From positions 2,684,001 through 2,748,000 of the forward strand of contig NZ_AP023366.1 of the NCBI RefSeq assembly GCF_015097055.1: a stretch of DNA of 64,000 nt. Direction: 5' to 3'. The notes beneath the pieces are model-generated. The model searched no databases, had not been told where the DNA came from, and saw only the letters and a list, made by a program, of their open reading frames with translations. This document shows positions 7,184 to 8,925 of the stretch, piece by piece; the first letter of the stretch is position 1, and each line of letters starts with the position of its first letter. This DNA comes from Effusibacillus dendaii. GTDB taxonomy: Bacteria; Bacillota; Bacilli; Tumebacillales; Effusibacillaceae. The translations under genes were made by a program, and so were the position numbers.

Positions 7184-8266
7184 ATGAAAAAACTTCTGGC
7201 TTGGGCCACAGGATTGGTCCTTGCAGCCTCCATCCCTGTAGTCAACAATGCAGCTTTTGCAAAAGAAAAATGGGGCGGGTTCAGGGAACGATCTGATCAA
7301 ACGGTGATTGATTCTTCGCTGAAGCAACATTCTCAACAAACCGAGTTTCCTTCTTTGGCAACGGAGCACTCAGATAATGAAGAGTCTGATCATGAAAATA
7401 ATGATCATAAAGATTTTAGTGATGAAGATCAGGGGCAGCAACAGTCTGATCAAACCGTTGCTCAGTCAGTGTATCGCAAACACGCAAAATCGAATCATGG
7501 AATTGAGCACGCCATTGAAAGTTTGCTGAAAGCTCGTCAGGATGGGAAGGGTGCAGCAAGCGACGATGCTTTGGATGCTGTTATCGAGAAACTGAAAGCT
7601 CGCCTGGTGGAAGATGGCGAAGCAAACACGAAAGAAGAGGCACAGCAGCAAGTGGAAGCTACGCTAGGCCAACAAGTGGACAATGGCACAGCGGATGAGC
7701 AGACTGTTGAGGTTCTTGTAACTGCCAAAATGCAGGATAATAAGTTGTCGGAAGCAAGGCATGATTTGGAAAAAGCCCTTCGCCACAATGCGCAATCCGA
7801 TAAGCTTTATAAATTGTTAAGCAAGGTATTGAAACAGCAAGGCGATACTCAGAACGCAAAAGTATATGTACAGGGTCAACCGCTGCAAACGGATGTAAAA
7901 CCGATTATTAAAGAAGGAAGAACTCTTGTGCCGGTTGCCGTGATCGTAAAATCGTTGGGGGCAAATGTGAACTGGGACCCGGACAGCAGGACGGTCACGA
8001 TCAACAAGGGAAATGTCAAAATTGAACTTCCGATTGGCGAACCGACAGTGACAGTCAACGGACAAAAGCAGACAATTGATACGGCGGCTGAAATTACGGA
8101 AGGCCGGACGGTGGTGCCGCTGCGCTTCTTATCCGAGATTTTAAAACAAAAAGTGGTATATGATCCGGAAACGAAGCTGATTACCGTAACCGATCCGAAT
8201 ACAACAACGGATAACACAACACAAACTTCAGCAGGCAGCAGTTCCACTGCATCTCAGGTACAGTAA
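7184..8266 (+). CDS. Secreted protein with copper amine oxidase-like stalk domain
   Basis: Begins with a Sec signal peptide (MKKLLAWATGLVLAASIP, cleavage after AAFA). Residues ~60-95 are very acidic and low in complexity (SDNEESDHENNDHKD), followed by a helical, charge-rich middle. The last ~130 residues hold a copper-amine-oxidase N-terminal-type domain: two beta repeats built around KEGRTLVPVAVIVKSLGA and ITEGRTVVPLRFLSEIL with TVTIN/LITVT strands. This domain is a non-catalytic wall or surface module in Bacilli. GGAAGG precedes the ATG by 8 bases. A strong terminator follows, so it is a single-gene unit. The specific function is unknown. Confidence 0.8.
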   Translation: MKKLLAWATGLVLAASIPVVNNAAFAKEKWGGFRERSDQTVIDSSLKQHSQQTEFPSLATEHSDNEESDHENNDHKDFSDEDQGQQQSDQTVAQSVYRKHAKSNHGIEHAIESLLKARQDGKGAASDDALDAVIEKLKARLVEDGEANTKEEAQQQVEATLGQQVDNGTADEQTVEVLVTAKMQDNKLSEARHDLEKALRHNAQSDKLYKLLSKVLKQQGDTQNAKVYVQGQPLQTDVKPIIKEGRTLVPVAVIVKSLGANVNWDPDSRTVTINKGNVKIELPIGEPTVTVNGQKQTIDTAAEITEGRTVVPLRFLSEILKQKVVYDPETKLITVTDPNTTTDNTTQTSAGSSSTASQVQ

Positions 8267-8274
8267 AAAGATAG

Positions 8275-8311
8275 CCGATACCCACCGTGATTGGATGGGT
8301 ATCGGTTTTTT
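8275..8311 (+). terminator. Rho-independent terminator after the stalk-domain protein
   Basis: Ten-base perfect stem CCGATACCCA/TGGGTATCGG with an 11-base loop and a run of six T. It lies between convergent genes and just past the 3' end of the phosphatase on the other strand. Confidence 0.9.
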
Positions 8312-8313
8312 CT

Positions 8314-8748
8314 TTACGCATCGGGAAACAGCTTTTTCAGGTCCCTCTTTAAAAGATCACTGACCGATACTTGTGGACGAATTGTCTGGATCATTTTTTC
8401 TGCCTCGTCTATCGTTCGGGCCTTGCCAAGTTTTAATAATACGCCGATCGCCACGCTGCCAGCGCGGTTTTTTCCGCCAGCTCAATGAAAGCCGATTTTT
8501 TTTCCGGATCGATTTGCGTCCACAATGGTATCGATTGCTCGCTTCAAAGACTCGGTTTGGTCTGTGGCTCCGTCTGTCAGTGGTATATGTACCCGCTGAA
8601 CATCCGAATCTGAAACAGTCAAAAAAGGAGCTTCTACGCGAAGATCTACGATCAGATCAACCTGTTCGTTTTCGACCATCGATTCGGTATCGAAAGCACC
8701 ACCGATAAAAATCCCGTGCAGCAGTTCCTGATACTCTTTCCTTCTCAT
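8314..8748 (-). CDS. Protein-tyrosine/dual-specificity phosphatase with in-frame TGA at the catalytic Cys codon
   Basis: Read with TGA as one residue, this is a 144-residue cysteine-dependent phosphatase. The N half gives LLHGIFIGGAFD, LIVDLR and the general-acid loop HIPLTDGATDQ. The P-loop should be HCxxGxxR: the sequence gives F-H-(TGA)-A-G-G-K-N-R-A-G-S-V-A. The TGA is at 8484-8482, exactly where Cys (TGT/TGC) belongs. The frame does not shift; 55 further codons follow with family-like content (LLKLGKARTIDEAEKMI, RPQVSVSDLL) to a TAA at 8316-8314. Either a selenocysteine codon, a nonsense mutation or a base-call error. A hairpin 14 bases past the TGA has SECIS-like geometry. If translation stops, the product is 88 residues and inactive. 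Confidence 0.8.
8451..8467 (-). promoter_or_regulatory. Hairpin downstream of the phosphatase TGA, SECIS-like geometry
   Basis: On the minus strand, 14 bases after the TGA, CCGCGCT pairs with AGCGTGG (7 bp, one G-T) around a GGC loop. The apical loop is 21 bases past the TGA and begins with G. Bacterial SECIS elements recognised by SelB usually sit in the reading frame right after UGA with the apical loop roughly 16-37 bases away. A competing GCGG/CCGC hairpin around six A overlaps the 5' side. Function is inference. Confidence 0.4.
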
Positions 8749-8925
8749 TCGTTTTTCTTCCTTCCCTTTGGATTCACGGCTATCTCTACTATATCAAAGA
8801 TGCGGTGCAATACGGGGGAGGAACTCGTAGGGGCACGTCGAATTCATTAGCAACAGAATAATCAGGCTGATCGTTTGTCTGATCTATGTCTGCAGTTCAC
8901 CGTTCTACAAAAAGGGGGAGAGAGC

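Follow-up and report, generated by a model that had tools for sequence, protein, structure and literature searches.

Selenocysteine (Sec) is known mainly in oxidoreductases, and its occurrence at the P-loop nucleophile of a tyrosine phosphatase would pose the question of what a phosphatase gains from selenium. A gene of Effusibacillus dendaii raises this question, since an in-frame TGA stands in it exactly at the codon of the catalytic Cys. We analyzed the gene within a 64,000-nucleotide stretch of the genome (the window) and asked whether this TGA is a stop or a selenocysteine codon. Our reading, to which we give a probability of about 94 %, is that this is a genuine selenoprotein gene encoding an enzyme of the dual-specificity phosphatase (DSP) fold, with Sec in place of the nucleophilic Cys. 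Computation establishes the codon, the presence of the machinery genes, a conserved hairpin, the family, the fold and the P-loop; we infer that Sec is almost certainly inserted at codon 89, where its selenol may act as a nucleophile or as a redox centre.

The TGA occupies the nucleophile codon of a phosphatase-fold gene

The gene lies on the minus strand, where its frame reads MRRKEYQELLHGIFIGGAF...GKKIGFH-(TGA)-AGGKNRAGSVAIGVLL...LKKLFPDA-TAA; the plus-strand reading of the same interval contained several stops and was rejected as a gene. The initial annotation had described a frame that is unbroken on both sides of the TGA and ends cleanly, and translation of the minus strand bore this out, with 55 sense codons between codon 89 and the TAA. 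The window copy is a lone gene whose neighbours are unrelated to it. No Rfam match was found within positions 8200-8850 of the window, and PADLOC gave no match.

Table 1 Coordinates of the features discussed, in the window and in the other loci named.
Feature	Location	Strand	Basis or details
CDS of the predicted Sec-containing DSP-fold protein	8314..8748	minus	ATG 8748, TAA 8316-8314, 144 aa, predicted Sec at 89
In-frame TGA, putative Sec codon 89 (position of the HCx5R catalytic Cys)	8482..8484	minus	Translation and aligned column
P-loop coding region, H-Sec-A-G-G-K-N-R-A (as predicted), residues 88-96	8461..8487	minus	Invariant positions, 43 sequences
bSECIS-like hairpin ACCGCGC-UGGCA-GCGUGGC	8450..8468	minus	Loop UGGCA at 8461-8457, 20 nt after the UGA
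Terminator-like inverted repeat directly 3' of the gene, between convergent genes	8275..8305	minus	Consensus scan: 12 pairs, then a T run
selD with in-frame TGA	L022 5645-6700	minus	AGUGCKIGP motif
chrA-family gene near the predicted Sec-DSP gene	L037 2893-4083		
chrA-family gene near the predicted Sec-DSP gene	L054 712-1917		
chrA-family gene near the predicted Sec-DSP gene	L105 1044-2249		
chrA-family gene near the predicted Sec-DSP gene	L125 5776-6960		
chrA-family gene near the predicted Sec-DSP gene	L128 706-1908		
chrA-family gene near the predicted Sec-DSP gene	L023 6331-7575		
chrA-family gene near the predicted Sec-DSP gene	L184 8024-9208		

The read-through protein matched the DSPc family PF00782 (2.4e-13, 50.5 bits, cut-off 33.5), and NCBIfam held no fitting model at cut-off, the sole match being a very weak one to PRK12361, far below the cut-off. 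AlphaFold modelled the protein as a single confident domain (pLDDT 94.2, pTM 0.90), for which the nearest PDB structures found by Foldseek were DUSP14, DUSP16, DUSP1, MKP5 and an archaeal PTP, with TM-scores of ~0.8 at 14-22 % identity. Across 43 aligned sequences, H88, C/U89, G92, R95, G97, A100, R124 and L137 were invariant. The catalytic motif of the window protein is HUAGGKNRAG, so that the standard HCx5R motif with its Cys nucleophile is absent: the Hx6R frame is intact, and the Cys codon is TGA. Read in this way, the window protein is a predicted Sec variant of the DSP/PTP superfamily rather than a standard member of it.

The genome encodes a selenocysteine system

For the search of the Sec machinery, we used the whole E. 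dendaii genome (one contig, 3.45 Mb). It contains a tRNA-Sec with a UCA anticodon (66.4 bits), an intact 642-aa selB frame (401 bits, over the cut-off) and selA (610 bits), with selD directly downstream of selA. Because of an in-frame TGA of its own, selD is started by ORF callers downstream at a TTG; its frame runs upstream through this TGA and carries the motif AGUGCKIGPADL. This is the usual Sec site of SelD, catalogued as UxxK (PMC13188914). All four of selA, selB, selC and selD, for which the initial annotation had proposed a search, are thus found in the genome, and judged on this gene content the organism uses selenocysteine.

Related genes carry the TGA at the corresponding codon

A diverged paralogue in the own genome carries the TGA at exactly this codon, and so do genes in 17 other genomes, namely 12 named Bacillales species, one metagenome-assembled genome (MAG) of the same genus and 4 further Bacilli, giving 19 TGA genes in 18 genomes. 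The gene of the same-genus MAG is 51 % identical to the window gene, with the TGA at the identical codon, and identity to the window protein falls to ~26 % among the TGA genes. The named species, which came from a DNA-pattern scan of 84,980 species genomes followed by a family-profile filter, are Litchfieldia alkalitelluris, Halalkalibacterium ligniniphilum, Evansella halocellulosilytica, Evansella clarkii, Halalkalibacter wakoensis, Bacillus sp. MRMR6, Mesobacillus campisalis, Alkalicoccus saliphilus, Alkalicoccus chagannorensis, Salipaludibacillus keqinensis, Sinobaca qinghaiensis and Alkalihalobacillus bogoriensis. Most of the 112 DNA-pattern matches were due to chance, and a strong family-profile score was obtained in only 14.

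Since that scan was designed to find TGA, we took the unbiased figure from 400 genomes of the class, among which 6 carried TGA genes (G000, G003, G314, G155, G165 and G185) and 43 carried other family members only. The 25 genes read from those 43 genomes all encode Cys at the position in question; the aligned column holds TGA in 18 genes, TGC in 13 and TGT in 12, and neither TAA nor TAG occurred at codon 89 in any gene examined. The claim that the TGA sits at the catalytic Cys of the P-loop was thereby upheld, as TGA alternates with Cys at this codon. TAA or TAG codons had been flagged inside some relatives; those inspected (L180 and L183) turned out to be ordinary stops at the gene end, and two genomes flagged for TGA (L172 and L178) likewise had ordinary stops and Cys genes. 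With 18 other genes sharing the TGA at this position, chance is excluded, and the genes appear to form a real selenoprotein family within Bacilli.

The Sec machinery accompanies the codon. Both selA and selB scored over the curated cut-offs in all 17 other TGA genomes (18/18 with the source genome), and a tRNA-Sec was found in 17 of the 18; the exception without a tRNA-Sec above the cut-off is the fragmented 420-contig MAG G003, in which selA and selB are yet present. As background, tRNA-Sec occurs in 91 of the 400 class genomes. In this class sample it was present in 5/6 TGA genomes versus 6/43 Cys-only genomes (Fisher p = 0.0013), and with the named species included the same test gave p = 2.9e-9, both values being optimistic since related genomes are not independent. 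What had been proposed as a candidate selenocysteine gene is in this way supported by selA, selB, selC and selD, by the TGA/Cys alternation and by the fact that the gene is not an isolated case.

Several further observations concern the Sec system itself. Genome G185 contains two selA genes (C33:129093-130448 and C23:277393-278739) and two tRNA-Sec genes, one pair lying side by side on C23; this duplicate set may represent an additional or a mobile Sec system, or else contamination, which is given as 7. Mesobacillus campisalis (G066) has two tRNA-Sec genes of equal score (C2:11336-11428 and C14:128373-128465). In Salipaludibacillus keqinensis (L031, 1547-3478 and 7209-7637), the predicted Sec-DSP gene lies within ~4 kb of selB and tRNA-Sec. 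Two genomes of the same genus as the source (G001 and G002) carry a tRNA-Sec and lack this DSP family, so the Sec system there is retained for something other than the phosphatase.

A SECIS-like hairpin is conserved downstream of the TGA

In all 19 TGA genes, the RNA 3' of the UGA reads approximately UGA-AAA-GGn-GGn-AAA-AGC-CGC-ACA-GGU-AGU-GUG-GCA. Columns 17-23 pair with columns 29-35 and enclose a 5-nt loop, [A/U/C]GGnA, which starts 20 nt after the UGA. The stem has 6 bp in the window gene, where the outermost pair is A-C, and 7 bp in the 18 other TGA genes. At least 6 of the 7 pairs form in 19/19 TGA genes versus 0/25 Cys genes. Overall, 99.2 % of the cells were paired, and sliding the partner by 1 to 3 columns reduced this figure to 14-53 %. 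When the hairpin was imposed on every sequence, its free energy ranged from -8.0 to -12.2 kcal/mol in the TGA genes, with a median of +6.6 in the Cys genes.

The pairing is also visible in the choice of codons. The pair at columns 22-30 is A-U in 11 genes, G-C in 7 and G-U in 1; its 3' side falls on the third, synonymous position of the Ser98 codon, where the choice of AGU or AGC follows the first base of residue 96 (Thr ACN or Ala GCN; p 1.6e-4). Arg95 is encoded by CGC in 19/19 TGA genes versus 3/25 Cys genes, and Val99 by GUG in 18/19 versus 2/25. Residue 98 is Ser in all TGA genes and Thr, Ala or Val in all Cys genes, which would be expected were the protein sequence constrained by the RNA.

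The published bSECIS model requires a loop of 3-9 nt, a G in the first two loop positions and a spacing of 16-37 nt (PMC13188914), and the hairpin of the TGA genes fits it. Taken alone, the window hairpin is not unusually stable (z -0.73 and z -0.21), and the SECIS case therefore rests on the comparative evidence. In the mechanism that we propose, SelB together with tRNA-Sec would decode the UGA of codon 89 as selenocysteine, directed by this hairpin. The product would be a small DSP-fold enzyme whose HCx5R P-loop has a selenol instead of the nucleophilic thiol.

Catalytic residues and gene neighbourhood

The P-loop of such an enzyme would most likely handle phosphate or a phosphate-like oxyanion, and Sec could give it a better nucleophile together with an easily reversed oxidation. 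Whether hydrolysis of phosphoesters is the main activity we judge, from the sequences, to be an even question. D59, by its position the putative general acid, lies 30 positions before the nucleophile and is present in the window protein; residue 59 is acidic in 25/25 Cys proteins, and N, A or S in 6/18 TGA proteins. The description as a phosphatase is supported as far as the fold and the P-loop go; the presumed general-acid Asp is gone in those six. At the end of strand 2, 13 TGA proteins and 0/25 Cys proteins have a second Cys, at residue 16. In DSP folds this strand adjoins the one leading to the P-loop, and Cys16 is a candidate resolving residue.

A chromate transporter (PF02417) lies within 1.5 kb of 6/18 TGA genes, the own paralogue included, versus 0/25 Cys genes (p 0.003), and a seventh case was seen in G314 at ~1.7 kb. 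Several arrangements occur: the transporter adjoins the TGA gene on the same strand in L037, L054 and L128, a padR gene stands between the two in L125, and the own paralogue is divergent from padR-chrA. The PadR regulator accompanies the transporter in four loci. In Bacillus cereus SJ1, chrA shares an operon with chrI, a PadR gene induced by chromate (PMC2936356). For part of the family there is thus a physical link with the genes of chromate export, chrA and padR, which makes a function in chromate, oxyanion or oxidant stress plausible.

These features raise the alternative that the selenoprotein is not mainly a phosphatase: its P-loop would hold chromate, another oxyanion or a peroxide, which the selenol would reduce, so that the protein would serve in detoxification or redox chemistry. 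Reduction of this kind is carried out by some HCx5R arsenate reductases, and the transporter neighbours, the PadR genes, the altered residue 59 and Cys16 all agree with such a chemistry. However, the window gene itself lacks a chrA neighbour, retains D59 and encodes no Cys apart from the Sec codon, and hence no Cys16; the His, the Arg and the P-loop core are invariant, and gene adjacency does not identify a substrate. We regard this alternative as possible without favouring it. Its most specific form is a Sec-containing family of the PTP superfamily that has turned into an oxyanion or oxidant redox enzyme beside chromate export in alkaliphilic Bacilli, with a Cys16-Sec selenenyl-sulfide in most members, and this we put forward as speculation that is rather unlikely to hold in full.

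Selection after the TGA and possible decay of some copies

The remaining alternatives deny the selenoprotein reading itself. The first is a recent nonsense mutation, a pseudogene or a base-call error in the source strain. Decay may occur in this DSP family: the own paralogue (G000:C1:636031-636458; L015, L017, L023), which reads HUEGGKSRAG and keeps both the TGA at the same codon and the SECIS-like hairpin, is split by an upstream frame shift, and the A. bogoriensis copy has no intact N-terminus in frame, so that some copies are possibly decaying or affected by errors. Against this explanation stand the same TGA in 19 genes down to ~26 % identity, the lack of TAA and TAG, the conservation of the hairpin at synonymous sites and the presence of selA and selB in all carriers. 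The part of the gene behind the supposed stop is also maintained. In the C-terminal part beyond the SECIS, the five pairs listed gave pN of 0.17-0.25 versus pS of 0.83-0.97, as raw proportions since dS is near saturation, and pN well below pS indicates that this part is under protein-level selection. Scattered decay confined to this strain, which the initial annotation had considered, is refuted by related species that keep the open frame, the conserved C-terminus and the SECIS-like hairpin. Since the same TGA recurs in 18 genomes, we reject a mutation, pseudogene or base-call error and give this explanation hardly any weight.

Equally improbable is that the UGA is read as another amino acid such as Trp, or serves as a deliberate stop yielding an 88-residue product as a regulatory switch: a Sec-UGA terminates when selenium is short, so a truncated product must arise at times, but the position is that of the Cys nucleophile, where a Trp would destroy the P-loop, every carrier has selA and selB, the hairpin is SECIS-like, and by the model a protein ending at the UGA would be missing the Arg of the P-loop together with the three final helices.

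In a maximum-likelihood tree built from 42 proteins, all TGA genes are found on the same side of one branch (99 % bootstrap, 95 % SH-aLRT). By this topology, a single exchange between Cys and Sec would suffice; the tree is unrooted as to its direction.

Relation to known selenoproteins and phosphatases

A 2026 catalogue lists 119 prokaryotic selenoprotein families and subfamilies, most of them with a thioredoxin fold or a redox motif, and none of the 119 is a phosphatase (PMC13188914). In the other selenoproteome papers searched, the word phosphatase is likewise absent, save in one on a PP2C-like domain fused to a selenoprotein peroxiredoxin, which is a different family. Our search of the full-text literature, covering openly licensed papers, found no selenocysteine PTP, and an unseen report or an unpublished annotation is possible. 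The genes appear to represent a selenoprotein family not described before and, to the best of our knowledge, no earlier one belongs to the PTP superfamily. The family would add a selenium-dependent protein to the alkaliphilic Bacillaceae, possibly one tied to chromate resistance. Standard annotation is liable to truncate such genes or to call them pseudogenes. Since this small 144-residue enzyme exists in a Cys form and a predicted Sec form among related Bacilli, what selenium brings to it is open to direct testing.

With the bacterial bSECIS selenoproteins (PMC13188914), the family shares a UGA at a conserved Cys, Cys homologues, a GG-loop hairpin 16-37 nt downstream and, in the source genome, selABCD; it differs from them in that Sec would replace the nucleophile of a P-loop phosphatase. 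The catalogued Sec-containing arsenate reductase and rhodanese-like selenoproteins are similar in that Sec takes the place of a catalytic Cys in enzymes that handle anions or sulfur, whereas they have other folds and UxxS or UxxG motifs, not the Ux5R P-loop of a DSP. The DSPs of PF00782 (DUSP14, MKP5/DUSP10, PTPMT1 and Tk-PTP) have the same fold (TM-score ~0.8), the Hx6R P-loop and, like the window protein, an acidic residue 30 positions before the nucleophile, but here the nucleophile is predicted to be Sec, identity to solved structures is 14-22 %, and six TGA members have lost the putative general acid. The Cys DSPs of Bacilli (for example L012, L159 and L166) belong to the same family and align over the full length at ~33-54 % identity to the window protein; they differ in carrying TGC or TGT at the nucleophile codon, no SECIS hairpin, Thr, Ala or Val at residue 98, and no chrA within 1.5 kb.
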